A stretch of 64,000 nt of DNA, from contig PNAS01000021.1 in assembly GCA_003169695.1 (NCBI GenBank), positions 11,861 to 75,860 on the forward strand, written 5' to 3'. Position numbers and translations under genes: made by a program. A model generated the notes under the pieces. The model made no database searches and had not been told where the DNA came from. It saw nothing but the letters and a program-made list of their open reading frames with translations. The stretch is from Spartobacteria bacterium (GTDB lineage Bacteria; Verrucomicrobiota; Verrucomicrobiia; Chthoniobacterales; UBA10450). Shown here piece by piece: positions 7,152 to 64,000 of the stretch. Every line of letters begins with the position of its first letter. Positions within the stretch are counted from its first letter, which is position 1.

Positions 7152-10100
7152 GTGGGTTCAAAGACCGCCGAAAAGCCATGCGTCACCGCTCCTCCTGACC
7201 CGCCTGAGGCGGGCCGCATCGAGATTCGCGGCGCGTGCCAAAACAACCTGAAAGGGATCGATCTCGATCTCCCGCTCGGAAAGTTAACCGTCGTTACCGG
7301 GCCCAGCGGCAGCGGCAAATCGAGTCTGGCTTTCGACACGATCTACGCGGAAGGCCAACGCCGTTACGTGGAGACCTTCAGTCCATACATGCGGCAGTTC
7401 CTCGACCGTATGGACAAGCCGCGCGTCGACGAAATCCGGGGCATTCCCCCAGCCATCGCAATCGAGCAGGCGAACCCGGTGAAAAGCTCGCGTTCCACCG
7501 TCGGCACGATGACGGAGATCAACGACTACCTGAAACTCTTGATGCCGCGCATCGCCCGCGCCTTTTGTCCCGGCTGCGGCCGCGAGATCCGCCCCGAAAC
7601 CGCGCGCTCGATCGCGGACGACGTTGTGCGCGAGTTCGCCGGCGAAACGGTCCTGCTCACCTTCTGGGTCGGAGTGCCGGCGAAGACCGATCCGCGCGAG
7701 TTCTTTGAATTTCTGCAGCAGCAAGGATATCTGCGCGTTTGGTTGAATGATGAAATCGTCCGTGCCGATACCGACAAAAAAGTCGGACGACTCGGCGCGC
7801 GCGTGCAGGTCGTTCAGGACCGCCTGACGATCGGAGAGGAAACACGCGCGCGCCTGGTGGAGTCGATCGAAATCGCGCTTCGATTCGGCAAAGACCGGAT
7901 CAATTTTGTCCTCCTTAAGACCAAAAAGGAATCGCCCTTCTCGACTGGCTGGCATTGCGCGCATTGCGACCTCGATATCCGCCCGCCGACTCCTGGACTC
8001 TTCAGTTTCAACAATCCGCTCGGCGCCTGTCCGACGTGCCGTGGCTTCGGCAGGACGATCGCGATCGATCTGAACCGCGCGATCCCCGATCGCAGTTTGA
8101 GCATCGCCGGCGGCGTGGTGCGCGCCTTTCAAGGCCAGCAATTTGGCGAATCGCAGAAAGACCTGCTGCGTGCCTGCGCCCGCGAAGAGATCGACGTGCG
8201 CGCACCGTTTGAGGATCTGCCAAAAGCCGATCAGGATTTTGTCATCAACGGCGAGGCGCGGGAGGCCGACACCGATGTCGAAGAGCTCGCGGAGAACGAC
8301 CGCTGGTATGGCGTGCGCGGCTTTTTCAAATGGCTGGAAAGCAAAACCTACAAAATGCACGTGCGCGTCTTGCTCAGCCGCTACCGCGCTTACACCACTT
8401 GTCCTGATTGCAGGGGCGGACGCTTTCAACCCGCTTCGCTGAACTATCGGATCGTTTCGCGCGCACGAGGCGAAACCAGGGAAACTGCGCGGACTCTGCC
8501 GGAGATCGCGCTGCTTTCCGTTGCCCATGCCCGGAAGCTTTTCGCTGATCTGGTTCTGCCGCCTAACGACTCGACCGCTGTGATGTTGCGTAGCGAAGTC
8601 GTCACGCGGCTCCGTTATTTGTGCCAGGTCGGGCTGGGCTATCTGACGCTCGATCGCTCCACGCGCACGCTCAGCGGTGGCGAAGTCCAGCGGGTGAATC
8701 TCACCACCTGTCTAGGTGCGTCGCTCGTGAACACACTTTTTGTCATGGACGAGCCAAGCGTCGGGCTTCATCCGCGTGATATCGGCCGCCTTGTGCGCGT
8801 CATGCACGATTTGCGGGACAAAGGCAACACGCTGCTCGTCGTCGAACACGAAGAAGCGATCATCCGCTCGTCCGATCACGTGATCGATATCGGCCCGGGC
8901 CGAGGCGAGCGTGGAGGTGAATTGGTTTTCACCGGAGCGCTCAATGAACTTCTGCAAGGCGCGCGCAGTGGTATTGGAAGGGAAGCCCGCGCTCCCCAAT
9001 CACTCACGCGCGATTACCTCGCAGGACGGAAAAGGATTCCAGTTCCGAAGTCGCGCCGGAAATCAACCGCTTCGATCAGAATCACCGGCGCCCGCGAGCA
9101 CAATCTCAAGAACCTCGATGTCGAAATTCCGCTCGGCATTTTCAACTGCGTCACCGGCGTTTCCGGATCTGGCAAGTCAACGCTCATTCACGAAGTTCTT
9201 TATCGGAACCTGCTTCAGGCGAAAGGACAGCCGAGTGAGCAGGAACCCGGGGCGTGCAAGTCGGTCACTGGCGCGCACCGCATCGACGACGTGGTGATGG
9301 TCGATCAATCGATGCTCGCGCGCACACCACGTTCGACGCCGATTCTTTATCTCGGGCTCTACGATCGTGTTCGCGAGCTTTTCGCCGCGCAACCGGAAGC
9401 GATGGCGCAAGGACTGACAGCGAGTGCGTTCTCCTTTAACTCCGGCAGCGGTCGCTGCGAGCGTTGTTGCGGCACCGGCTTCGAAAAGATCGAGATGCAA
9501 TTCCTGAGCGATCTTTACGTGCGTTGCGCCGAGTGCGAAGGGCGCCGCTTTCAGCCACATGTCCTGCGCGTGAAACTGCACGAGAAGTCAATTCACGACA
9601 TCCTCCAATTGACCGTCAATGAAGCGATCCAGTTTTTCGCGCAGATTGGCGAATCCGAGAAGCTCGGCTGTCCGCTCGACGTTCTGGACGAGGTCGGCCT
9701 CGGTTATCTGCGACTCGGTCAGCCTTTGAACACGCTTTCCGGCGGCGAATCGCAGCGGCTTAAACTCGTCCGGCATCTGGCGGACGAAAGTGCCGACACG
9801 AAGCAGAATGGCTCCGCCCGCGGCAATCTCCTTATCTTCGACGAACCGACGACGGGGTTGCATTTCGACGATGTCGCGATGCTGGTGAAGCTGTTTCAAC
9901 GACTCGTTGAAGCCGGCAACACCATCATCGTGGTCGAGCACAATCTCGAGGTCATCAAGTGCGCCGATTGGGTGATTGATCTCGGGCCTGAGGCTGGCGA
10001 CGAAGGCGGAAAACTCGTCGCCGGCGGAACTCCGGAGGCTGTGGCGCGGGTAGATGCGTCGCATACGGGCATGTTCCTGCGCGAAGTGTTGCGGAAGGTT

Positions 10101-12884
10101 CACGGCATCCTGCCGCGAAGCCTTCAGGCCCGATACGAATTGGACGATTCTGATTTGGCTTTGCGCGCGGCGGAAGAACCGTCCCGCAAGGCGCAGGGCG
10201 GAACGGGCTGGAAGCCCGCGCTCCCCAACGGACATCGCAACGCGGCGAATAACGCCATCCGCATTCATGGCGCTCGCGAACACAATTTGAAGAATATCTC
10301 GCTTGATATTCCGCGGGACAAAATGGTGATCATCACCGGCCTCAGCGGTTCCGGAAAATCGACCGTCGCGTTCGATATTCTGTTCGCAGAAGGGCAGCGC
10401 CGCTTTCTCGACAGCATGTCGCCGTACGCGCGTCAATTCGTCGAGCAACTCGAAAAACCGGACGTCGATCTCGTTGAAGGCGTACCGCCAAGCATTGCGA
10501 TCGAACAACGTGTCACACGCGGTGGCGGCAAATCTACCGTCGCCACTGTGACCGAGGTTTACCATTTTCTCCGGCTCCTTTTCGCCAAAACCGGAACGCA
10601 GTTCTGCCCCGATTGTGATCTCCCGGTCGAGAAACAAAGTCTGGCCGCGATCGTAAAACAACTGGAGACCGCGGTGAAGCGCGGCCCGCTCAAGGTTCTG
10701 GCGCCACTGGTCAAAGCACGCAAAGGATTTCACACGGACGTCGCGCGCTGGGCGGAGCGGCAGGGCTTCGACACGCTTTTTGTCGATGGAGTGCTCGTGC
10801 CGATCGCTCAGTTCCGAAAACTCGAGCGCTTCAAGGAACACACTATCGACGTCGTGGTCGGAGCGATCGATGCGAAACGAATTTTGAAAGCGCGGAATTT
10901 GGTCCAGCGCGCGCTCGATATCGGCCGCGGCACCGCGCACCTGCTCGACGCGAAACACCGCCTCACGGTCATGAGCACGGAGATGAGCTGCCCGGGGTGC
11001 GGACGCGCCTTTGAAGAACTCGATCCTCGCTTATTCTCATTCAATTCGCCGCACGGCGCCTGCCAAGAATGCGGCGGTTTCGGCGAAATTTGGAATCGCG
11101 CCAAGCAAACGGGCACGGAGGATACCGGCGATTCCGTTCTGGAAAATGAGCTGGCCGCGGATCGCGAATTCGAGTGGGTCGATGAAGACGCGGCGGCACC
11201 CTGCCCGGCGTGTCACGGATCACGCCTGAATCCGATCGCGCGGCACGTGCGGCTGCAGAATCAGACGATCGATAATTTCACTGCTCTTTCGGCCGGCGAA
11301 TCGTTGCAGTTGATCGGCAAGCTTCGTTTTCGCGGCAACCAGAAAACCGTGGCCGACGATCTCGTTCCGGAAATTTCGCAGCGTCTTCGGTTTATGGAAA
11401 ACGTTGGGCTCGGTTATCTCGCGCTCGGACGTTCCGCGAAAACTCTCAGCGGTGGCGAGTCGCAGAGAATTCGTCTCGCGGCGCAGCTCGGCTCGAATTT
11501 ACGCGGCGTTCTTTACGTTCTGGATGAGCCAACGATCGGTCTCCATCCGCGCGATAATCTTCGACTGCTCGAGACCCTGACGGCGCTACGAGAGAAAGGA
11601 AACTCGCTCGTGATTGTCGAGCACGACGAGGCGACGATGCGCCGCGCCGATCATATTATCGATCTCGGTCCAGGCGCGGGGATGCACGGCGGCGAAGTCG
11701 TCGTGCAAGGGACACTGGGCGACATCCAAAGGCACGCGAGCTCGGAGACGGGCCGTTGCCTGAAAAATCCTTTGTGTCATCCCACGCGAAAGACGCGGCG
11801 TTCGTTAGGCGAGGTCGAGCGATGGATCGAGATTCGCGGAGCGCATGCGCACAATCTCAAAAACGTCGACGTGCGTTTTCCGGTCGGCCGGCTCTCGGTC
11901 ATCACCGGCATCTCTGGCTCTGGAAAATCGACGCTGATGCGTTCGGTTCTGCTGCCGGCGGTGAAGGAACGTTTGACAAAGGAACCGGGCAAACAGCGGG
12001 AATTATTCTCAGCGATCACCGGTGCCGACTCTTTCGAGACTGTCTACGAAGTGGATCAGTCGCCGATCGGGAAGACGTCGCGCTCCACGCCGGCGACTTA
12101 CATCAAAGTTTTCGACGAGATTCGCAAGCTCTATGGCCAACTGCCGGTGTCGCGCGTGCGCGGGTATTCGGCGAGCCGCTTTTCCTTCAACGCGGAAGGC
12201 GGCCGTTGCGAAACGTGCAGCGGCCAGGGCGCCATCAAGCTGGAAATGAGTTTTCTGCCGAGCAGTTATGTGCCGTGCGAGGACTGCGGCGGCCGTCGCT
12301 ATAATCCGCAGACCCTCGAAGTGCTCTACAATGAAAGGAGCATTGGCGATGTCATGGAGATGACGATCGAGCAGGCCGCCACGTTCTTCGCCACGAACCA
12401 GAAGATTGCGCGCCCCCTTTCGCTCCTGGTCGATACCGGATTGGGATATTTAAAGCTGGGACAGCCGAGTCCGACGCTGAGTGGCGGTGAAGCGCAACGG
12501 TTGAAGCTCGCGACGGAGCTAACGCGCGGAATCGCGCGTGCGCAGAACGAGCGCATTCGCAAGATGCGCAAACCGAAATCGACGCTCTATCTCCTCGAGG
12601 AGCCGACGATTGGCCTTCACATGGCGGACGTGGAGTTGCTCTTGAAAGTGCTGCACCGGCTCGTGGATGAAGGCAACACGGTGATCGTAATCGAGCATAA
12701 TCTCAGCATCATCGCGGAAGCTGATTATATCGTGGATATCGGACCGGAGGCTGGGGTGGGTGGCGGGGAAATTGTTGCGACCGGTACGCCTGAAGAAGTC
12801 GCGAAGAGTCGAATCAGCCGAACGGCACCGTTCTTGCGCGATGTGTTGGAAGTGACGCGCCACAGCGTGTCATCCCGAGCATAG
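7152..12884 (+). CDS. uvrA: Double-length excinuclease ABC subunit UvrA
   Basis: UvrA is the damage-sensing ATPase of nucleotide excision repair. This protein has 1910 residues, twice the usual length, and holds two complete UvrA units in tandem. Four Walker A loops are seen (GPSGSGKSS near 50, GVSGSGKST near 670, GLSGSGKST near 1063, GISGSGKST near 1586), with four LSGGExQR signatures. Walker B regions read [33 protein letters not shown] and [11 protein letters not shown]; the last has Glu for the usual Asp. Both C-terminal zinc fingers are intact (CERCCGTG...CAECEG and CETCSGQG...CEDCGG). Chlamydiae have the same tandem form. The start is GTG. Repeat-derived sequence fills the linkers and the C-terminus. 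Confidence 0.96.
8970..8998 (+). repeat. Dispersed repeat, family 2, inside uvrA
   Basis: An in-frame copy of a GGAAGCCCGCGCTCCCCA element sits in the linker before the second ATPase module of UvrA. A second copy lies at 10199. Confidence 0.65.
10199..10228 (+). repeat. Dispersed repeat, family 2, inside uvrA
   Basis: GGGCTGGAAGCCCGCGCTCC is read in frame as GWKPALP at the junction of the two UvrA units. It is more complete than the copy at 8970. Confidence 0.7.
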
Positions 12885-45129: not shown

Positions 45130-47115
45130 GCGAGGCTGCAGCCCCGGTCGATCGGGCTTCGGACCGCAACTTTCACTCGGCTACGATTCCGGCGCAGGTA
45201 ACGGGCCTTTCGGCATTGGCTGGCACCTTTCGCTCCCCTCCATTACGCGCAAGACCGACAAGGGCTTGCCGCGTTATTTTGACTCGAATGATTCAGATGT
45301 TTTCATTCTGTCCGGCGCAGAAGACCTCGTACCACTGCTGGTTCAAAATGGTGTCTCCTGGTTCCGCGAGAGATTGCCAGTTCGCCCCGTGAATGGCGTT
45401 AGTTTCCGAATCGACCGCTACCGTCCGCGAATCGAAGGGCTCTTTGCCCGCATTGAACGCTGGTCAAACGTTGCAGACCCGACCGATGTTCGCTGGCGCT
45501 CGATTTCCAAGGACAACCTCACCACTTGGTATGGAGCGGACGCGACATCCCGTATCGCCGATCCGACTGATCCGAGTCACATCTTCAGCTGGCTCATTTG
45601 CCAAACCCATGACGACAAGGGCAACGTCATGGTTTACGAATACTTAAATGAAGACTCACAGGGAGTCGACCTAGCCCGACCGCAGGAACGCAACCGGTCC
45701 GACGCGGCGCGAATCACCCAACGCTACCTCTGGCGCATTCGTTACGGCAACCGGACATCCTATTTCCCAGATTTCGACCCAGCCAGGCACGCAACGTCGC
45801 TTCCCGGCGACGAGGATTGGATGTTTTCCGTAATCTTGGATTACGAGGAAGGCCGATACCGGACAGTCTCCGCCGCAGGCGACGATCCGGAGATTGTTCA
45901 AATCAATTACGACGCAGCAAAACCGTCGGGCTGGCCGGTCAGACAGGATCCGTTTTCCACCTACCGGTCTGGCTTTGAAGTGCGCACTCAGCGGTTATGC
46001 CGGCGGGCACTCATGTTCCATCACTTTCCTGCCGAACTGAGGACAGCGGCCTGCGTGGTCCGCTCAACGGAATTTAACTATCAAGATGAACCCGTGGGGT
46101 CGTTCATCACTTCAGTTGTGCAGTCGGGTTATGTTCGCCAAACGGAAGGCGTCTACCGAAAGAAGTCCCTTCCGCCGCTGGAGTTTGAATACTCAGCCGC
46201 GGAAATCAGTTCGGTAATTCTCGACGTCGATCCGTCTTCGCTGGAGAATTTGCCAATCGGCCTCGATGGAAGCACCTACGAATGGGTGGATCTCGACGGC
46301 GAAGGTCTCAAGGGGGTCCTCGCAGACACGCCGGGGCCTGGTACTATAAACGCAATCTTAGCGCGCTGCCACAACTGACCGCCTCTGGCTCGTCGGAGGT
46401 CCGCGCGTGCTTTGCTCCCGTTGAGTCGGTGGCACGACTTCCCGCGACCGCTGGTGTCAGCGGACGCCACCACCAGTTCCTCGATCTCGCAGGCGATGGC
46501 AATCTCGACTTGGTGGAGTTCGGCGGACCGACTCCCGGTTTCTACAAGCGCACCCCCGACGAAAATTGGAGATCGTTCGCTCCATTTGGGTCCCTGCCCA
46601 ACCTGCCTTGGGAGGACCCCAATCTGCGTTTCGTCGACCTCACCGGCGACGGGTTTGCCGATGTCCTCATCACAGAGAACAACGTTTTCACGTATTACCG
46701 TTCGCTAGCGGAGGACGGCTTCGACCAAGGAGACCGAGTGAATCAACCGTTCGACGAGGAGACTGGCCCGCGCGTCGTGGTCGCAGACGCCGCTGCATCG
46801 ATTTCTGTTGCTGACATGTCCGGCGACGGTCTTGCAGATCTCGTTCGCATCCGCAATGGCGAAGTCTGTTTCTGTTTATTGGCCAAATCTCGGCTACGGC
46901 CGATTTGGCGGCAAGGTAACGTTGGATAACTCACCGTGGTTCGACCTGCCCGACCAGTTCGACCCCAAGCGTCTCCGCCTCGCCGATATCGACGGCTCGG
47001 GTACGACCGATGTGATTTATCTCGGACGCGACTGTATCACGATCTACCTCAACCTCGCCGGAAACAGCCTGAGTGACGCCGAGCCGCTGGACCTTTTTCC
47101 TCCGGTCGATAATCA
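45130..47115 (+). pseudogene. Decayed TcaC/TcdB-SpvB type toxin-complex gene
   Basis: A truncated central piece of an insecticidal toxin-complex B-subunit (SpvB plus TcdB middle domains). It opens in frame with PGRSGFGPQLSLGYDSGAGN and GPFGIGWHLSLPSITRKTDK, then SNDSDVFILSGAEDLVPLL. Near 46331-46335 a base missing from a G run shifts the frame into GAWYYKRNLSALPQL and FG-GAP repeats (DLAGDGNLDLVEFGG, DLTGDGFADVLI). Near 46868 a small duplication shifts it again into YWPNLGYGRFGGKVTLDNSP. Homology stops after DLFPPVDNHAAVQ near 47110. N- and C-terminal domains and Rhs repeats are missing. Confidence 0.88.
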
Positions 47116-55549: not shown

Positions 55550-56243
55550 AAATATGCTCCTATGGACTTAGTCGGCTTTGAGGAACTTGATTCTCCGCCC
55601 TTGCTTCCCATGAAGCGCCCTCTATCAGTAATTACGGGAATAGTTGGGCGAAGTTGTCAAAAATCTGCGGTTTCTTCATCCGAGGCCGCAAGATCGATGT
55701 ACGCGCACTAAGGACGCTATTTTTCAACACTTTCAAAAAGATGCGTCAAGACGCTTGTTCATTAAACGAATGTTTTATGAACCAGTTGATTGGCAAAGAT
55801 TTTGCTTCGGATCAGTTTTACCCCCTTTTCTGAACATAAGGCGACGGACCGATGGGAGTAAACGCGTTGCGAATGTCCAAGCATCGTTGCCAGTTATTAT
55901 TCTCGACGAGGAGCTCAGTTTACATCACCCTGGCGTGACCTTCGAATGGTCAGCCCAGCATCCTCATCGAAAGCCGCTAAATCGGAAGTCTGTAGCGCGG
56001 CAAGTTTCCGAGAACCGGTTTTCATCCCTTTCAATGCATCCCCCTCGATTCAAGTGTTTTCCTTTCTGGTGGTGCTGTTTTCTTTTTGGAGGCGGAATCT
56101 GGTTCCTGCTGGGTCTGTGCATGGCTGATATGGTACTTCAATAGGGAGCGAACTGGTCCCCATATGGAGCAACCAGGGTCCTGGCACTCACATAGTCTCG
56201 TCATCGCCTGTCGGGGTGACTCCTCCGGCGCGTGGTTAGTCAA
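55550..56243. other. Gap without a supported gene
   Basis: One long frame (55644-56144) has a poor composition and no clear ribosome site. The region probably carries the promoter of the downstream cluster. Confidence 0.45.
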
Positions 56244-57416
56244 ATGCGAGTATTGATTTACAACTCTAGCGCCAGAGGTTCGGGGCAATACGTTAGATCC
56301 CTGAAACTTGCGGGAATCATCACTGACTCAATTACCGATTCGCATTGTCTCATCCTTGCTGGCAACAGCATTGTGGAAAAGCCCTTACCAGTGCGCACCG
56401 AAGTGCGTGAGTTGCCACCGATTCACAAATCCATTGTCGGCGATTTTGTCATTTCCACTCCTTCCAGTGGACTGGAAAAGCAGGCAAGCGACTTACCCCA
56501 AGCTTTTGCGGAGCGGAAGCGGATCATTGATGACACGATAAAAGCATTCGACCCCGATGTCTTCCTGGTGGACTCGAGACCGAGCGGCCTGAATGCCGAG
56601 CTAATGGATGGCTTGCGCCGCCTTTCATCGTCGCAAAAGTGCAAGACGGTTCTCATGCTTCGGGACATCGTTGACGATCCTGCTCGCGTGCGAAAGCGCT
56701 GGGCCCACGAGGGTACCTACGAGCTGATTGATGCATTATACGACGACGTCATCATCTTTGGTACACAATGCGTGTATGATGCGATTGAGGCGTATCAGAT
56801 GTCCAGATCAAAGACCAAGGTATCTTTTCTTGGCCTGCTCGGCGATCCGTGCGTCGACGCGTCGGAGTGCAAGACCTCCAACACTGATGCAGCACTCAGG
56901 CGAATTCTGGTGACGGTTGGAGGAGGATTTGACGGTGACAGGATCGTTGACGTGGCCTGCGAATACGCGTTGCGTGCTGGGGATGAACAGCGAAATCTCG
57001 AGTTCGACATCGTCCTAGGGAGCAACTCACACCTCTGCGCACAGGATCTCACTGCGCGATACGTCGGTCTCACGCGAAACACCAGGATCATCGAGCATAC
57101 CCCCGACTTCAGCGCTTTGATGATGAACGCTAACGTCGCCATTTCGATGTGCGGATACAACACGATTTGTGAACTAGTCCAGAGGAGGAAGAAGATCATC
57201 GGGATCCCTCGATCACATCCCGGCCGAGAACAGACTATCCGGGCGGAGTTCCTGACCAAAACATACAACGGTATTTGGGTTCTCCGAGAGCCCGAACTAA
57301 CGACGGCAGCGCTTGCCACCCTAATCGATACCGTGTTGGCCGCACCTGAACCGCAGGTGCGCCTTGAGATGAGCGGCGCATCCAACCTCGTTGCCTTCCT
57401 ACTCACACCACGCTGA
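56244..57416 (+). CDS. MurG-like (GT-B fold) glycosyltransferase
   Basis: 390 residues from ATG at 56244. GT-B fold of the COG4671/MurG type: the N-domain has LIYNSSARGSGQYVRSLKLAG and FDPDVFLVDSRPSGLNAELMDGLRRL; the C-domain has ILVTVGGGFDGDRIVDVAC, RIIEHTPDFSALMMNANVAISMCGYNT (nucleotide-sugar site) and IIGIPRSHPGREQTIRAEFL. It likely transfers a sugar from a UDP- or other NDP-sugar. It is followed by one base and then the pyruvyl-transferase-like gene, so the two are one unit. Confidence 0.85.
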   Translation: MRVLIYNSSARGSGQYVRSLKLAGIITDSITDSHCLILAGNSIVEKPLPVRTEVRELPPIHKSIVGDFVISTPSSGLEKQASDLPQAFAERKRIIDDTIKAFDPDVFLVDSRPSGLNAELMDGLRRLSSSQKCKTVLMLRDIVDDPARVRKRWAHEGTYELIDALYDDVIIFGTQCVYDAIEAYQMSRSKTKVSFLGLLGDPCVDASECKTSNTDAALRRILVTVGGGFDGDRIVDVACEYALRAGDEQRNLEFDIVLGSNSHLCAQDLTARYVGLTRNTRIIEHTPDFSALMMNANVAISMCGYNTICELVQRRKKIIGIPRSHPGREQTIRAEFLTKTYNGIWVLREPELTTAALATLIDTVLAAPEPQVRLEMSGASNLVAFLLTPR

Positions 57417-57417
57417 T

Positions 57418-58611
57418 ATGAGGACCAAGGAACTGATCAACTGGGGATCATATGACGTCGACAATTTCGGCGACTTGTTGTTCCCGTTTCTTGTCGAGCA
57501 CTTTCTCGGACGCGAGTACAGCGACATCCTTCATGTATCCCCCACCGGCACTCCATCGATCTGGCCCGATGCAAAGCAGAGCCTTACGATAATCGAGGCG
57601 CTTGGTCGGGTTTCTCAGCCAGAGCTGATTGTGGGTGGTGGCAATCTCATCAATACGAGTGCATCTAGCTCCATCAATTACGTCGAAAAGCCCGCTTTCG
57701 CAAAGATCGTTCATGAATCGTTTGCCTGGGTGCCATACGTACTCCTCGCGAATTACGGAATACCATACGCCTACAATTGCATCGGAGTCGCGAAGTCTAT
57801 CCCCCCCGCGAAGCGGCAATTGATCAGATGCGCGCTCGAGGCGGCGTCCTTCATCTCATGTCGGGATGAGGCGAGTCTTTCTCACCTTCGATTGGCAGGC
57901 GTGAGGTCACCGATTGTGGTTGCGCCTGATTCCGCGGTTGATGTAGCTCGCGTCTTTCCGATAGAAGCGATGCGAGTGCATTATGCAACCGAGGTGAGGC
58001 TCAAGTATGCACTTCCCTCGGATGGGACCACTGCAGTCATCCATGTGAAAGAACGGTACCTGAAGGACGACTTCCCAGCGTTTGTGATGGTACTCGAGCT
58101 TCTCTGCGCTTCCGGAGTTCATCCAATCCTCGTTCCTCTTGGGATGTGCCACCGGGATGACCGAGTGCTGACGGAGCCGCGACTCCGGGACCTTCGTGTG
58201 ACATGCATTCAGAAGCCTGAACGGATACTCGATATTCTCTCCATGCTCGCGGTGTCGCGATACTACCTTGGCTCGTCGCTACATGGGGCAATCACCGCGC
58301 TCGCATACGGCAATGGAATTGCTATTGTCGCTGACGAGGAGGCCTCGCGATTGAAGAAGTTCTCCGGATTCCTTTCCCATGTGAGTCTTGGCCACTGCCT
58401 ATTCGATAGTTGGAAGGACGCGTGTGCGAGTTTGGCCGTTGCCGGGATGGACATCTGCGAAACGATGTCCGATGCGACGGCCAGGGCGATGGCCACGAGG
58501 CCTGATCCATGGGAGGCAATTATTCGAGGCTTCCGCACGGAACGTCCAGCGCTGCGACTGACCGTCGACGTTGATTTGGCGCGAACCGCGCGAGAGCATT
58601 ACCTAATCTGA
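57418..58611 (+). CDS. Polysaccharide pyruvyl transferase-family protein
   Basis: 397 residues. The family start is NWGSYDVDNFGDLLFPFLVEHFLG (about 7-30), with ELIVGGGNLINTS and the family end YYLGSSLHGAITALAYGNGIAIVADEEASRLKKFSGFL carrying the SLHG motif. Enzymes of this fold add ketal pyruvate to sugars of surface polymers, but many homologues are unassigned. It overlaps no gene but starts directly at the stop of the glycosyltransferase and ends seven bases before the PRT-HAD gene. Confidence 0.85.
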   Translation: MRTKELINWGSYDVDNFGDLLFPFLVEHFLGREYSDILHVSPTGTPSIWPDAKQSLTIIEALGRVSQPELIVGGGNLINTSASSSINYVEKPAFAKIVHESFAWVPYVLLANYGIPYAYNCIGVAKSIPPAKRQLIRCALEAASFISCRDEASLSHLRLAGVRSPIVVAPDSAVDVARVFPIEAMRVHYATEVRLKYALPSDGTTAVIHVKERYLKDDFPAFVMVLELLCASGVHPILVPLGMCHRDDRVLTEPRLRDLRVTCIQKPERILDILSMLAVSRYYLGSSLHGAITALAYGNGIAIVADEEASRLKKFSGFLSHVSLGHCLFDSWKDACASLAVAGMDICETMSDATARAMATRPDPWEAIIRGFRTERPALRLTVDVDLARTAREHYLI

Positions 58612-58618
58612 GGGGCCA

Positions 58619-59464
58619 ATGCGATTCAAGTCACTTAGCAACCTTAGTGTCGACATTCAAGTGAAGCTGCTGCCGCAACTGCCTAGAGACGTCGGGGTCG
58701 TCTACGGAATACCTCGTTCCGGTATGATCCCCGCCACGATCATTGCAACGGCGATTGGAGCGAAGTTGGGCACGCTTGGCGGTGCGTCCTACTTCGGGAG
58801 TCGGCAAAAGCACCGGTTGCTCCCAGCGGGTACGAAGGCCCTCCTTGTCGACGACAGTTCCCATACGGGCAAGGCGATGGCTGCAGCGAGCGCGGCCCTC
58901 CGACGAGAGCGGGTGGATCACTACACCTGTGCCGTCTACGCGCATACAGATTCATCGAGCGGGTTGGACTTCTACGCTGAAGTGCTCGATGGCGGTCGCA
59001 TCTTTCAGTGGAACTTCACTGGCGTGAAGGCCACCGAGCGATTCTGCTGGGACATGGACGGGGTCATTTGCACGAATCCAACGGTGTTCGACGACGATGG
59101 TGATGGCTACCGGAACCACATCCTGAACGAGGTACGCCCATTGTACCTCCCGCAAGTCATGGTCAAAGCGATCGTCACCAACCGGCTCGAGCGATGGCGG
59201 AGCGAAACGGAGACATGGCTACGTCGATATGGTGTCCAGTATCGGGAGTTGCTTATGCAGCCATGGCCGACGGCGGCTGAGCGCCGACAGAAGAGCAGTG
59301 CAGAAGAATTTAAAGTCAAACATTTTATTGATCGGGATGGTTCCATATTCATCGAAAGTCATGATCGCCAGGCCGAGACGATTGCGGCGCTTTCGAGGCG
59401 ACCCGTACTGAGCGTGGAATCGATGCAACTATTCGGCGGCGAGCGCGTTGAAACAGGCCTGTAG
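58619..59464 (+). CDS. Phosphoribosyltransferase-HAD phosphatase fusion
   Basis: 281 residues with two domains. The first (about 1-135) is a type I PRTase: GVVYGIPRSGMIPATIIATA and the PRPP loop KALLVDDSSHTGKAMAAAS (DDSSHTG about 77-83). The second (about 140-275) is a HAD domain: FCWDMDGVICTNP (nucleophile and acid/base Asp about 145-147), VTNRLERW, the lysine in SSAEEFKVKHFI and a degenerate IFIESHDRQ end. PRPP-dependent ribosylation followed by dephosphorylation is the obvious combined activity. GGGGC precedes the start. Confidence 0.85.
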   Translation: MRFKSLSNLSVDIQVKLLPQLPRDVGVVYGIPRSGMIPATIIATAIGAKLGTLGGASYFGSRQKHRLLPAGTKALLVDDSSHTGKAMAAASAALRRERVDHYTCAVYAHTDSSSGLDFYAEVLDGGRIFQWNFTGVKATERFCWDMDGVICTNPTVFDDDGDGYRNHILNEVRPLYLPQVMVKAIVTNRLERWRSETETWLRRYGVQYRELLMQPWPTAAERRQKSSAEEFKVKHFIDRDGSIFIESHDRQAETIAALSRRPVLSVESMQLFGGERVETGL

Positions 59465-60025
59465 GATGGCCTGGATTTCGACCCAGGACACAGCAACACA
59501 GATGTGTTCGCAGGGCGGCTGGGGCTTGTGAGGAGAAGCACAAAAAAGCACGCGTTTAACCCCTCTCGCTTCTTCCGTCGGCCCAAGGTGGCGGATGTCA
59601 TCGTCCACAAGGGCGCTCATGTTGCCTGCCTGACACCAGGCAAGTTTACTGCCCGATGGCCCCAGAAATACGATTTCAGATACCTGGTCAATCAAGCCGT
59701 GCCGCCTTAGCCAACTACGTGTGAGCGCGCGCTGGGCGTCGGTGCGCGATGTAAGAATGAAGATACGAAACCGTCTCGACAGGTTGCTGCACACGCGTCT
59801 CACCCCGGCCACTGGTCGACGGCACCTGACGTTAGCATCATTGTACACTTCGGCGGCCATTCGTTCGTACAACGCCTCGTCTCCGTTGATTTGGTCGATG
59901 ACCTCTCGTCGCGAGCGTGGCCATCGTCCGAGATCGAAACCCTGCGCCGCGAACCACGACCGCTTGCTGCCCCAGCTATCCTCGATCGTGCCGCCCAGAT
60001 CAATGGCGATCCCCGGGACTGTCAT
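59429..60025 (-). CDS. HAD-superfamily protein with altered motif I
   Basis: 198 residues from ATG at 60025 (MTVPGIAIDLGGTIEDSW); the longer frame to 60190 is Arg-rich and unlikely. HAD motif I is DLGGT, not DxDGT, so the usual acid/base Asp is Gly. Motif II is FILTSRTDAQRAL, motif III the Lys in GPSGSKLAWCQ, motif IV ALVDDDIRHL. This may be a phosphatase with altered mechanism, a phosphonatase-like enzyme or a binding protein. It overlaps the PRT-HAD gene tail to tail by 36 bases. Confidence 0.8.
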   Translation of the reverse strand: MTVPGIAIDLGGTIEDSWGSKRSWFAAQGFDLGRWPRSRREVIDQINGDEALYERMAAEVYNDANVRCRRPVAGVRRVCSNLSRRFRIFILTSRTDAQRALTRSWLRRHGLIDQVSEIVFLGPSGSKLAWCQAGNMSALVDDDIRHLGPTEEARGVKRVLFCASPHKPQPPCEHICVAVSWVEIQAILQACFNALAAE

Positions 60026-60478
60026 TTGGGTAGAATCCGGTCCCGAACGAACAACAGCCCCAGCTGTCATCGCGCACGTCTGCGACAGATATGACTGCCT
60101 CGTTGATTTGCCAATCGAAGGGGCGCGTCCGACACGACCGTTCGCGTCCCGTGCATCTACGCCAAAGCCGGAAAATCGACACCTCGCCATGATTGCAACT
60201 CCGAAGGACTCCTATTTTGGGAAATTAGTGGTGTTCAAAACAAGCCTTTTCCGGTAACAGCTAAATCCCCAGTAGAACCCTCTCTTTTTGCAAGCCACCA
60301 ATGAACATATTTCCGGTAAGGTCACCACGACGGGTCGTTCCCCGCGTCCGGGCGTCGAAACACCATTTTGCAGTAACAGCGCATCCCTCGATCACTATTG
60401 TTAGGCAGGCAATCGCCTTACATTACTACCTCAACAAACATACTGGACTTGTTCTGTAACTAGAAGGAAGGCCAAACA
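60026..60478. other. Divergent control region, no gene
   Basis: Separates the HAD gene (minus) from the phosphatase/SIR2/flavoprotein trio (plus). AAGGAAGG stands 8-15 bases before the ATG at 60479, a good ribosome site. Base composition changes from GC-rich to AT-richer across this gap. Confidence 0.5.
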
Positions 60479-61270
60479 ATGCTCCATCTTATTGAAGAAA
60501 CCCTTCGTGCATCCGGCGATCTCTTGCTCCATGATAGTGAGAAGCGTACCCGCTCAGTCTATCCGCGGACGCCTCAGATAGTCGCCAGAGTAAAGGAGCG
60601 GATAGTTACGGACGACGATTTAAGGCTAAATGATTTTATCATGCGTGCGATCCGGACACAATTTCCTCACCACAACATTGTATCTGAGGAGAATAACGAC
60701 AAGACCTGGAATCTAATGGAGCCCACCTGGATAATTGATCCCATTGACGGTTCCCTCAACTTCTCACGTGGAATCGACTACTACTGTATTTCCATCGGTC
60801 ATTGGAACCAAGGTGCCCCAGTCGTGGGGGGGGTTTATTGTCCAAGAAACCAAGAGCTCTTCCTGGCGGAGCGAGGAGCAGGCGCGACGCTCAACGGACG
60901 TTCGATTGCAGTTTCTCAAACGCGGGAACTCGAAGCAGCTCTAATCCTCAGTTCAGGCTGGGAATCCTTCCGACATGCCAACCAAGAAACAGTTTTGTTA
61001 CGTGCGCTCAAGAATATTGGCAATTTGCGCATCTTTTCCGCTTCGGCGCTAGATATGTGCCAGGTAGCCGCTGGCCGAGCTGATGGACGCATTTACGCTG
61101 ACTGCAGGCTGTGGGACATATCGGCCGCTATGCTAGTCCTTTTAGAGGCGGGCGGGAAGGTTACAGACTGGCGTAATAATCAATGCCCTACTGCCGAAAC
61201 ATTAGTCGCCTCAAATGGTCTACTCCACGAACAACTATTAGCCCTGGCGAATGACACTGACAATTCCTGA
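60479..61270 (+). CDS. Inositol-monophosphatase-family phosphatase (CysQ/SuhB-like)
   Basis: 263 residues. All metal-site motifs of the Li-sensitive phosphatase family are intact: NIVSEENND (Glu about 70), WIIDPIDGSLNFSRGI (about 84-99) and LWDISAAMLVLLEAGG (about 211-226). Substrates in the family are myo-inositol phosphates, PAP/PAPS, fructose-bisphosphate or histidinol phosphate. The first gene of a three-gene overlapping unit; its stop lies 20 bases inside the SIR2 gene. Confidence 0.88.
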   Translation: MLHLIEETLRASGDLLLHDSEKRTRSVYPRTPQIVARVKERIVTDDDLRLNDFIMRAIRTQFPHHNIVSEENNDKTWNLMEPTWIIDPIDGSLNFSRGIDYYCISIGHWNQGAPVVGGVYCPRNQELFLAERGAGATLNGRSIAVSQTRELEAALILSSGWESFRHANQETVLLRALKNIGNLRIFSASALDMCQVAAGRADGRIYADCRLWDISAAMLVLLEAGGKVTDWRNNQCPTAETLVASNGLLHEQLLALANDTDNS

Positions 61271-62912
61271 GGAGATAAGGGACGCTATTCGACAGGATCG
61301 TCTCGTGCTTTTTGTAGGGTCTGGTTTCTCCCGCCCACTCGGTTACCTAGATTGGCGCCGCCTCGCTCTCAAGGCAATTGCAGAGTTTTTGCCCGAGTAT
61401 CCCGTTGTGGCGCCACTCGCCGAATGCCTCCGATTGGGCGCGCTCAGTGAGGTTCTGGTCTTTGATGCCCTAAAAGAAATCAACGAAGACAGGGTTCACG
61501 GTATTATTAAGCGAGCGAATAGTATTACTGTTTCGAAAGATTCTTTGGACAGCCATAACACTTTGTGGGCAATCGCTAGGAAAATTATTACGACCAACTA
61601 CGACACGTCATTAGAGGGCGCCCACGGCAACATTATTCCAATATGCGTAGATCACGAATTCGAACTAAAGCAAAATCTCAAAAAGCAAGAGTGGCTATTT
61701 AAGATTCACGGTACGGTGGACAACATTCGTGGCTGCGTAATTTTCAGCTCCGATTATGCGAAGCTCTATTCTACAGAAAGTCTTGCCACGCATCAACTGA
61801 AGGCCATCGCCGCCAATAATACCATATTGTTCTTGGGATTTAGCCTCAAAGATCGTTATGTATCGACCCTTTTTGAAAACTTGCAGAGATTGCTAACAAC
61901 CGACGTTAATAACGATTTGTTTATAGTACTCGAAAAGAGTGCACCTTTTGCCTTCCGCTTCATTCGTCGAATTGACATTCCCAACTATAAATCGCTTCCG
62001 TTGCTCCTACAGGAGCTCGCTGCGATCAAACGGGCTACACCAAAGGAAGCGATTCGCGTTACTCGTTTTCTTAGACGACGGTGCAGGACGTTTGAAAGGG
62101 GCTCGGCGAGCTTTAATTCTCTGGTAATCAAAGCGGCATCGGAGGAGGTTATGGAGGATGAGTTTGATGCGTTAGAAGCGAAAGTAGGCACTTTAGTGGA
62201 TTCCTACGAACGGTGCGTAGCCTCAGCAGCACTACACGAGAATTCCGGAAATATCGAAACGATGGTTAAGGTGTTGGAGAGCGCGCGCTTTTCTGGCAAC
62301 AAGGAGCTTTCGCGCCTTTTGTACCTTGCATTGGGCTTAGAGAAACTCGACGAACTAAGAGCGGCGATAGGGTACTATGAAACAATTATCGAAAGACCGG
62401 TAATCAATGAGTTTACGATGTCCGCACGGTTCAATAAGTGTATATGCCATGAGAAGCTCGAAGAATACAGCCATGTGGACTTCGAGCAGTTCATTAGGAG
62501 TAAACGCAAAGTGCTTTTTGGGCGGGAACGAGTGGCTCATAAGGCGCTGTCCAACCATTTAATCGTGTGTCATAAACTGGGTAGCCAGTTTCTCTACACG
62601 AAAGAACTTGATGCATTATTGGAGTTTGAGGTGCATAACTCCCCAAAATCTTTTGTGAAATCCTTTATTAATTATTTGACCTATAAACACGAGGCGATTG
62701 ACCGCAGCAAATACGACGAGATTTTGGGGTTGGCAAACAGCATGAGCGTTCAGGCAAGGATCGCAGGAGTTTGCAAGCTTCTTAAACACCTGGACCAGGA
62801 AACCCTTGCTTTAGTGAAAGGAGAGGCGTTGGCGATGGTGGAGCGTCTTTACACCGCCGCACCATCTTATTCGAGCAGGAAGTATATTGACGAATTTCGG
62901 GAGAGTGTCTAA
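61251..62912 (+). CDS. SIR2-domain protein with long C-terminal helical region
   Basis: 553 residues. An N-terminal SIR2_2-type NAD-binding domain: LVLFVGSGFSRPLGYLDWRRL (GSGFS 23-27), KIITTNYDTSLEGAHG (about 112-127), and the catalytic His in FKIHGTVDNIRG (about 150-161), then NNTILFLGFSLKDRYV. The rest (about 260-553) is helical and TPR-like (LSRLLYLALGLEKLDELRAAIGYYETI). In prokaryotic defence systems such SIR2 proteins (DSR, Thoeris ThsA, prokaryotic Argonaute partners) act as NADases. The start ATG overlaps the phosphatase gene. A defence role is inference. Confidence 0.85.
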   Translation: MTLTIPEEIRDAIRQDRLVLFVGSGFSRPLGYLDWRRLALKAIAEFLPEYPVVAPLAECLRLGALSEVLVFDALKEINEDRVHGIIKRANSITVSKDSLDSHNTLWAIARKIITTNYDTSLEGAHGNIIPICVDHEFELKQNLKKQEWLFKIHGTVDNIRGCVIFSSDYAKLYSTESLATHQLKAIAANNTILFLGFSLKDRYVSTLFENLQRLLTTDVNNDLFIVLEKSAPFAFRFIRRIDIPNYKSLPLLLQELAAIKRATPKEAIRVTRFLRRRCRTFERGSASFNSLVIKAASEEVMEDEFDALEAKVGTLVDSYERCVASAALHENSGNIETMVKVLESARFSGNKELSRLLYLALGLEKLDELRAAIGYYETIIERPVINEFTMSARFNKCICHEKLEEYSHVDFEQFIRSKRKVLFGRERVAHKALSNHLIVCHKLGSQFLYTKELDALLEFEVHNSPKSFVKSFINYLTYKHEAIDRSKYDEILGLANSMSVQARIAGVCKLLKHLDQETLALVKGEALAMVERLYTAAPSYSSRKYIDEFRESV

Positions 62913-63999
62913 TGTTGTGAATCAAATAGCGTGCGATGAGGTGTGCTTTTTGGGAGCAGGATTGAGCGCACGAATCGGCGCGATTCTTGCGAGGCAGACA
63001 GGGTTGCGACCGCTAGTTCTGGAGGAGGCCCCTTCGTTCGGCCAGTTTGCATTGCAACTCTCAACTGGACCTATAAGCCCGATTCCCATTTTTCCATTGA
63101 CGGATGGCTTTCTTTCAGCCCGGTTGGGATTCGCGAACGGTCGCGGTGAAAATGTTGAGGTCCATCGAACCGCCGTTAGCAAATGTAATTGGAATTCGGT
63201 AGATATTCGAGACGACTCTCTTGGAGCCTTTCTACTACGGCGGCATCATTCGCCTGATGAGGCGTTAGTACTAAGTATCAAGCAATGGGGATCCAAAGTT
63301 TGGCGTGAGCCATTGCTCCAGATTCAATACAAAATTATTCGTCACTATTTAGGAGGGCACGTTAATACTCGTTGCGGATTCCATGCTGGGCTTTCTCCAT
63401 ATCATCGCTTGGCTCAGGCAGCAACTGAAGGGCTGCTGCATATTGGGACGCTGCAGTGTGTTGATTTGAAGAAACGCGCCGTCGTAGGAAGCAAACAAAC
63501 TGTACACTTCAGGAAACTCGTCTCAACAATTCCACTTCCGCGTCTCTTACTGCTTTGTAATTGCGCGTACGGTGGCTTTGGGGAAGCGGCACCTGCGTAT
63601 TTTCAGTATTATCGGCACACGGCTGCCCTGCAGGAGAACCATCTCCTATATGACTGCGATCCCGACTCTCCGATTTTGAAGGTGTTTTCCCCTACGTGCA
63701 ATGTGCTGATGGTACAAGTGGCAGATCGTGGACGGCAGCCATCGACATATGAAGTTTCCCAAAGATTGCCCGTTTTGTTTCCCGGACTCTCGGGATTGTT
63801 TTTCGAACGGGAGTTGCGAATACCTGCGGCCTATCCGCTTGACTTTGTTGACCAAACGGGCTCTCGCCGCGGCTTTCTAAGGGAAATGGACATCCTCACC
63901 TTCGGACGTCTTGGCGACTGGGAATATCGCGATCTTCATGAATTGGACTGGAGCGGTATGCTTTCATTCATTAGGAGTGGAAGTTGCATTCTTGGTTAG
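62905..63999 (+). CDS. UDP-galactopyranose-mutase-like FAD protein
   Basis: About 365 residues ending at TAG three bases before the window edge. Start uncertain: TTG 62887, GTG 62905 or GTG 62917, all overlapping or abutting the SIR2 stop. It has DEVCFLGAGLSARIGAILARQ (FAD-binding Rossmann start), REPLLQIQYKIIRHYLGGHV, KLVSTIPLPRLLLLC and ILTFGRLGDWEYRDLHELDW; the G-R-x-G-x-W-E-Y segment is the flavin contact typical of UGM/protoporphyrinogen-oxidase-like enzymes. It may be a mutase making a furanose sugar or an oxidase. The third gene of the overlapping unit. Confidence 0.8.
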   Translation: MSNVVNQIACDEVCFLGAGLSARIGAILARQTGLRPLVLEEAPSFGQFALQLSTGPISPIPIFPLTDGFLSARLGFANGRGENVEVHRTAVSKCNWNSVDIRDDSLGAFLLRRHHSPDEALVLSIKQWGSKVWREPLLQIQYKIIRHYLGGHVNTRCGFHAGLSPYHRLAQAATEGLLHIGTLQCVDLKKRAVVGSKQTVHFRKLVSTIPLPRLLLLCNCAYGGFGEAAPAYFQYYRHTAALQENHLLYDCDPDSPILKVFSPTCNVLMVQVADRGRQPSTYEVSQRLPVLFPGLSGLFFERELRIPAAYPLDFVDQTGSRRGFLREMDILTFGRLGDWEYRDLHELDWSGMLSFIRSGSCILG

Positions 64000-64000
64000 C

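Follow-up and report, generated by a model that had tools for sequence, protein, structure and literature searches.

The window analysed here is a 64,000-base stretch of a Spartobacteria draft genome (4.14 Mb in 85 contigs) and corresponds to bases 11861-75860 of contig C41 (113,129 bases). Near its 3' end lies a gene cluster that includes the main subject of this analysis, a gene for a two-domain protein here called PRT-HAD (58619..59464, plus strand), in which an N-terminal type I phosphoribosyltransferase (PRT; residues ~1-132) is followed by a C-terminal Pnkp-like HAD phosphatase (~137-270). All seven open reading frames (ORFs) that an earlier note, made from the sequence alone, had placed here were found, and the cluster consists of four units. 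The first, on the plus strand, is formed by a GT28_C-type glycosyltransferase (GT) gene, a polysaccharide pyruvyl transferase family (PF04230) gene and PRT-HAD; the second is a weakly recognised HAD-like gene on the minus strand, convergent with the first. The third is a plus-strand run of genes for an inositol monophosphatase family phosphatase (IMPase), a SIR2_2-domain protein and a flavoprotein-like protein, and the fourth, on the minus strand and again convergent, comprises a GHMP-kinase-like gene and an orphan of 162 amino acids and runs past the window end. This stretch of genes is an accessory island for glycan modification that was not found in the congeneric genomes searched: neither the GT28 nor the pyruvyltransferase protein had a match at E<=1e-6 in seven other genomes of the genus, nor did the upstream S1/P1 nuclease protein at E<=1e-20, and as each species was represented by one genome, this accessory status holds at species level.

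In the window protein, the PRT half was recognised by the Pfam model Pribosyltran with an E value of 3.3e-5 (23.7 bits, slightly below the Pfam cut-off of 26.3), and by profile and structure matches it was nearest to purine PRTs. Structure prediction gave a soluble PRT fold for the N-terminal half and a HAD fold for the C-terminal half, which also matched PHROG 415 (polynucleotide kinase) at 5.6e-7 over residues 144-238, so that the proposed fusion of a PRT to a HAD phosphatase was borne out. A profile built from seven PRT-HAD sequences gave 495 pattern matches in GTDB representatives, 446 of them coding stretches. From these relatives an alignment (A4) of 45 hand-chosen cellular rows, window row included, was made, whose taxa were Pseudomonadota, Bacteroidota, Planctomycetota, Bacillota, Elusimicrobiota, Fusobacteriota, Spirochaetota and one melainabacterium in addition to the window. 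Plasmid records matching the window protein numbered 41, each over at least 80% of the protein length, with 33 belonging to Rhizobium or Sinorhizobium. Within its own phylum PRT-HAD is rare, with matches at E<=1e-6 in only two of 387 genomes, its own genome among them. Pribosyltran matched all 45 members, a weak HAD match was obtained for the HAD half of one, and NCBIfam returned assorted PRT models; neither Pfam nor NCBIfam thus holds a curated model for the whole two-domain protein, and the family has none of its own there. A fold search of BFVD with PRT-HAD gave no convincing full-length match among the 50 matches listed. This widespread, unnamed, glycan-linked family of two-domain enzymes is the main yield of the analysis.

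The residues on which catalysis would depend are strongly conserved. The PRPP (phosphoribosyl pyrophosphate) loop DDS, with D78 and D79, was invariant in all 45 cellular rows, as were the HAD residues D145, T187, R189, K232 and E246, and D147 was Asp in 44 of the 45. Among 73 rows from viral contigs, D79, D145, D147, R189, K232 and E246 were invariant, with D78 being Asp in 68 and T187 being Thr in 71. Profile alignment with the archaeal purine PRT GpT-2 placed P126-R127 of the family at the W-I of that enzyme, and the position of the GpT-2 K was occupied by Pro in 42 of 45 PRT-HAD rows and by Lys in one; in GpT-2 the W, I and K residues stack on and bind the purine. With the PRPP loop invariant and the purine-contact positions not kept, it looks as if PRPP binding has been kept and purine recognition lost. 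One genome (G289) carries two adjacent PRT-HAD paralogues inside an exopolysaccharide cluster (L008:8957-9907 and 10014-10964), of which the first keeps VVDDCIGRG and has lost the second Asp of the HAD motif and the second keeps DIDGV and has lost the PRPP loop. These complementary losses suggest that the two chains may share both reactions as a two-chain enzyme.

Gene neighbourhoods were compared for 80 of the 446 cellular and 80 of the 123 viral relatives, in loci that extend no more than 10 kb (cellular) or 6 kb (viral) in either direction. Neighbours were labelled using a custom greedy ORF caller, which kept no PRT-HAD ORF in 7 of the 80 cellular and 7 of the 80 viral loci, and one Pfam-scanned representative per cellular cluster (cluster 20 was labelled from record annotation). 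By raw count, a member of a GT cluster or a GT fusion was present in 61 of 80 cellular loci and in 44 of the 51 loci of at least 15 kb. PRT-HAD was found in one chain with a GT2 domain in three loci (L015, L067 and L092), with GT2 and Capsule_synth domains in another (L068) and with an FkbM methyltransferase in two more (L038 and L040). In 7 of 80 loci, all of them Bacteroidota according to their titles, PRT-HAD had a same-strand gene of a PS_pyruv_trans cluster, a label given from one Pfam-scanned member, at a distance of 21-177 bases. This is the same pair as in the window, and the window pyruvyltransferase protein was unmatched at E<=10 by a profile of the Bacteroidota PS_pyruv_trans set. 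In plasmid annotations PRT-HAD has lipopolysaccharide biosynthesis proteins and GTs in its vicinity in two Paracoccus cases as well as in Bosea and Rhodobacter, and a methyltransferase of the type seen in viral loci adjoined PRT-HAD in 6 of 73 cellular ORFs. On a Rhizobium indigoferae plasmid (L009:9819-16136) a caspase-family gene stands directly 5' of PRT-HAD, which is followed by a glycosyltransferase gene and a VgrG gene of the type VI secretion system; a caspase-like cluster, identified by eye, and a GT cluster occurred in 7 loci each.

Relatives of PRT-HAD were also found on viral contigs, the A4 profile identifying 123 coding stretches in IMG/VR, a collection in which proviruses or misassigned pieces may be present among the contigs. 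The best match, on a 111-kb contig (L125), shared 49% identity with the window protein across residues 1-275, compared with 41% for the best cellular row in the tree. In a FastTree phylogeny of 118 rows the window and L125 proteins paired with a support of 99 and were separate from the remaining 44 cellular rows; FastTree readily joins long branches, so this pairing is to be taken as a lead only. The L125 gene is adjoined by genes for two GTs and for a sulfotransferase-like protein; their Pfam scores were modest, and that of the sulfotransferase-like protein fell below the cut-off. Reading of translations identified a DNA polymerase, a clamp-loader subunit and a dUTPase-like protein on the contig. 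Beside these replication genes L125 carries a run in which PRT-HAD stands together with GT, methyltransferase and sulfotransferase-like genes. Directly adjacent to the viral PRT-HAD ORFs there was a methyltransferase (labelled by BLAST to the cellular cluster) in 14 of 73 cases, a GT in 9 and either of these in 21, and at least one of six glycan-type clusters was present in 39 of 80 viral loci; several of these loci are near-identical, so the counts are not independent. Two of the viral GT clusters were labelled from one Pfam-scanned member each, one of which was below the Pfam cut-off, and a third by reading. A search of a named-phage collection with three queries (the window protein, L182 and L125) gave no full-length relative: matches to the L125 protein were confined to polynucleotide kinases from 6 Arthrobacter phages and covered 43% of its length, and the window and L182 proteins had no match.

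Taken as a whole, PRT-HAD is probably, though far from certainly, a PRPP-dependent enzyme that adds ribose to a glycan and is encoded within an accessory glycan island whose other genes did not turn up as a recurring system with it. The PRT half would transfer ribose-5-phosphate from PRPP to the glycan and the HAD half would then remove the phosphate from the transferred ribose-5-phosphate; on this scheme PRPP would be the donor and a sugar the acceptor, transfer would precede dephosphorylation and the product would contain ribofuranose. Ribose transfer of this kind in a surface-glycan setting had been put forward in the earlier note and is still the best reading of PRT-HAD, and GT and PS_pyruv_trans genes do recur beside its relatives.

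The paper of Kelly in 2022 is reportedly the founding one on PRPP-dependent ribofuranose transfer with HAD dephosphorylation. This reaction sequence is established for the Klebsiella O4/O7 enzymes (PMC11231755), for Haemophilus influenzae b Bcs3 (CriT/CrpP; PMC10299916), for Campylobacter jejuni Cj1432 (PMC12096443) and in a lipid-linked variant (PMC11127046). The suggestion that no described system has this set was therefore too broad where dual-domain ribofuranosyltransferases are concerned; on a glycan enzyme with the PRT-then-HAD arrangement no publication was found in the open-access literature searched. PRT-HAD resembles the gPRT-PRP enzymes in joining a PRT-type domain to a HAD phosphatase, in its polysaccharide loci and occasional fusion to other transferases, and in possessing the PRPP-binding acidic pair D78/D79 and the HAD catalytic residues. 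However, in Bcs3 and in Cj1432, where HAD domain 357-573 is N-terminal of transferase 574-914, the HAD comes first and the transferase has a divergent PRT-like fold (PMC10299916; PMC12096443), whereas PRT-HAD begins with its PRT, has a purine-PRT fold and ends in a Pnkp-like HAD. PRT-HAD is not classed as a gPRT-PRP member, because the domain order differs and the transferase half looks like an ordinary PRT. Only ordinary PRTs were among the PDB matches listed for that half, and gPRT/PRP enzymes were absent from the 60 of 70 PDB matches listed for the full profile and from the 5 for the HAD alone, which leaves room for kinship. The lipid-linked variant of Citrobacter youngae, ORF15, a polyprenyl-phosphoribose synthase with a PRP domain, likewise has PRPP as donor and a HAD phosphatase domain; its transferase is a UbiA-family membrane protein (PMC11127046), in contrast to the predicted soluble PRT fold of PRT-HAD.

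Several observations weigh against a glycan ribosyltransferase. Of the cellular loci, 19 of 80 had no GT by their labels (seven of them long: L019, L025, L033, L038, L057, L071 and L083) and BLAST to the cellular GT clusters found a GT in only 9 of 80 viral loci. At the island itself, no flippase, Wzy or priming GT was found among the 30 proteins of the contig that were scanned with Pfam, and PF02397 occurs at two places in the genome, on contigs C7 and C57, neither of them at the island. Among the cellular rows, that of the window sits on a long branch (2.55). R127 is invariant in cellular rows, but of 73 viral rows only 32 have Arg at this position, and 27 have His. Finally, enzymes with this PRT fold make N-glycosidic bonds, and W131-N132, which lies in the same region, is conserved throughout the 45 cellular rows, so that there is still room for a base-like acceptor.

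The remaining genes of the cluster are very tightly packed. The GT28_C-type gene (56232..57416, plus strand; an in-frame ATG at 56244 agrees with the start given in the earlier note) is separated by one base from the ATG of the pyruvyltransferase gene (57418..58611, plus strand; the ORF list starts it at TTG 57391), and PRT-HAD starts 7 bases past the preceding stop. The identification of a GT-B transferase and a pyruvyltransferase-like protein was upheld, with matches to Glyco_tran_28_C (E 7.8e-8) and PS_pyruv_trans (E 8.6e-15), respectively. The minus-strand HAD-like gene (59429..60190) overlaps PRT-HAD by 36 bases. Between it and the divergent IMPase gene lies the widest gap within the cluster (60191..60478), where no promoter or terminator was supported, the signal in a scan of the locus being no higher than in shuffled sequence. 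The IMPase (60479..61270, plus strand; Pfam E 4.4e-52) is an ordinary family member, with DPIDGSLNF and WDISAA being what we take to be motifs of the family. Two additional phosphatase-type enzymes had been proposed, and this one is firm; the minus-strand HAD is weakly recognised, with matches to PHROG 420 (unknown function; 5.8e-8) and PHROG 415 (3.3e-5) and to no Pfam family at E<=0.01. It was found in 4 of 357 phylum genomes, the other three copies having 26-28% identity and neighbourhoods unrelated by eye. The SIR2 gene (61251..62912, plus strand; SIR2_2 E 6.8e-21) overlaps the IMPase gene by 20 bases and is, as first described, embedded between it and the flavoprotein gene (62887..63999, plus strand), for which GTG 62917, close to the SIR2 stop and with GGGAG upstream by eye, may be the start.

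The flavoprotein keeps a GAGLS-type N-terminal motif, and a GAGxS-type nucleotide-binding motif is all that it shares with UDP-galactopyranose mutase (UGM), the enzyme type first proposed for it. That identity was rejected: a profile of nine UGMs gave an hmmsearch E value of 1.1 and an hhalign probability of 2.6% over 33 columns, and PF03275 finds a single place in the genome, the true UGM on contig C72 (G000:C72:4227-4823), and not the flavoprotein gene. At a maximum E of 10 Pfam returned only a stray domain of unknown function (HMMER filters hide most weak matches) and NCBIfam gave nothing at 0.01; single-sequence structure prediction reached a pLDDT (predicted local distance difference test) score of only 28.6, and the protein was found at E<=1e-5 in 1 of 387 phylum genomes, its own. 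Beyond 64 kb the cluster continues with the minus-strand GHMP-kinase-like gene (L002:9824-10660, equivalent to window 63964-64800), whose 3' end is inside the window (63964..64000) and overlaps the flavoprotein ORF by 36 bases, and then the minus-strand 162-aa orphan (L002:10661-11149); the flippase sought there was, as stated above, not among the proteins scanned. The GHMP-like protein weakly resembles mevalonate kinases (1.8e-4 and 0.0011) and was found at E<=1e-5 in 1 of 367 phylum genomes, again its own. No plasmid match at 1e-3 was obtained for the flavoprotein, GHMP-like or minus-strand HAD proteins, and single-protein searches, which reach close relatives only, found no viral relative of the flavoprotein, SIR2 or GHMP-like proteins.

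Whether these genes belong together was judged by co-occurrence (phmmer, E<=1e-3), the comparison that the earlier note had named beforehand as able to refute one recurring system. IMPase, SIR2, flavoprotein and GHMP genes were found beside PRT-HAD in 0 of 80 cellular and 0 of 80 viral loci, and the idea of a single recurring gene set is not supported for them: the IMPase-SIR2-flavoprotein run, like the GHMP-kinase-like gene, lies in the same island as PRT-HAD but was not observed to recur with its pathway. It is quite possible, if somewhat doubtful, that the island is a pile-up in a variable region, where GT28-PST-PRT-HAD (PST being the pyruvyltransferase), IMPase-SIR2-flavoprotein and the GHMP-162-aa pair were acquired separately and share no pathway, which is compatible with a ribose-adding PRT-HAD. 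The lack of co-occurrence favours this, as do the GT28, pyruvyltransferase and upstream nuclease proteins unmatched in the genus, the SIR2 protein unmatched in 57 relatives and a GC content of 57-58% over PRT-HAD against 45-50% across the genes from SIR2 to GHMP, which hints at two sources. The very tight packing with overlapping units argues against it, as does the plausible role of IMPase, GHMP kinase and HAD as sugar-phosphate enzymes. The repeats of L002 (one 24-base tandem pair and no inverted repeats) mark no island edge.

A different role for PRT-HAD itself appears unlikely, namely that it makes a free nucleoside-like metabolite, the PRT joining ribose-5-phosphate to a base and the HAD dephosphorylating the product, with the nucleoside then being glycosylated, methylated or used as a signal. 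Such a route is proposed for Ter systems, which pair nucleobase PRTases with HAD-fold phosphoesterases and are in that way alike (PMC7824862). The kinship of the PRT half to purine PRTs and the retention of W131-N132 fit this, and PRTase_2 weakly matches 3 of the 45 members. Against it stand the purine-contact positions, which are not kept, and the fusions to GT2 and Capsule_synth domains. In addition, the Ter enzymes are described there as parts of a larger system with TerB, TerC, TerD and others (PMC7824862), whereas PRT-HAD is a single fused chain in GT loci, and no Ter family, TerB, TerC and TerD included, was found among the 30 Pfam-scanned proteins, which are part of the contig.

The SIR2 protein is an unexplained member of its tightly packed run. 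Its PADLOC matches, within residues 5-227, were to LmuA (best, 6.4e-22), ThsA (2.3e-20) and Dsr1, and in an alignment with solved SIR2 proteins it keeps the Asn of TTNYD and the His of KIHG, the latter aligning, by count, with the residue changed in DSR2(H171A) entries. It thus shares the SIR2 domain and the catalytic Asn and His with the defence NADases LmuA, ThsA, Dsr1, DSR2 and KomC; it differs in that the C-terminal half has no confident family and that no partner gene of known SIR2 systems was recognised, PADLOC matching only SIR2 among the ten proteins scanned. Searches of 366 other genomes of the phylum (E<=1e-10) and of the 57 relatives (E<=1e-6) found no relative, and 17 plasmid records matched, none of them reaching beyond roughly the first half of the protein. 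A literature search for SIR2 in combination with capsule and NADase listed one paper, which deals with gut Bacteroidales and phages. Most simply, it may be an NADase-type effector carried inside the island. That it guards the island, as an abortive-infection effector triggered by phage disturbing or exploiting the glycan, is improbable: its defence matches, its embedded position and the TIR, patatin and EVE-domain genes downstream would fit, but no relative was found in the same setting, no sensor was identified, and similar SIR2 proteins on four plasmids lie near mobility genes (recombinase, integrase or conjugation) and not near glycan genes.

Downstream of the island a metallo-beta-lactamase-like ORF, recognised by eye and without a Pfam match at 0.01, overlaps a patatin-like phospholipase gene (L002:12584-15123). 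The same contig encodes an SDH-type ClpP-like protease (L002:18171-19367), an EVE-domain protein (L003:1877-2302) and a TIR-domain protein (L003:10098-11132), and this stretch is possibly defence-rich. Within the window, at 45266-46378, there is also an ORF with a strong SpvB-domain match (PF03534, 4.1e-75).

A wider reading of PRT-HAD is tentative, and we put it at a serious possibility short of even. In it, PRT-HAD would be a second, independently built PRPP glycan ribosyltransferase, with a recruited purine-type PRT turned to O-glycoside formation and an RNA-repair-type Pnkp-like phosphatase. It would circulate between bacterial exopolysaccharide loci and the GT/methyltransferase runs of uncultivated phages, ribosylating virions or the host surface, and the window copy would come from a phage-side lineage. 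The enzymology of ribofuranose in bacterial glycans is recent and covers a single type of two-domain enzyme in the cytoplasm and a single lipid-linked route. If PRT-HAD does add ribose to glycans, the search for glycans containing ribose would be widened by a family that differs in domain order and fold and occurs across many phyla as well as on viral contigs; it would also provide a small soluble enzyme to test and suggest that genes for ribosylation are carried by phages.

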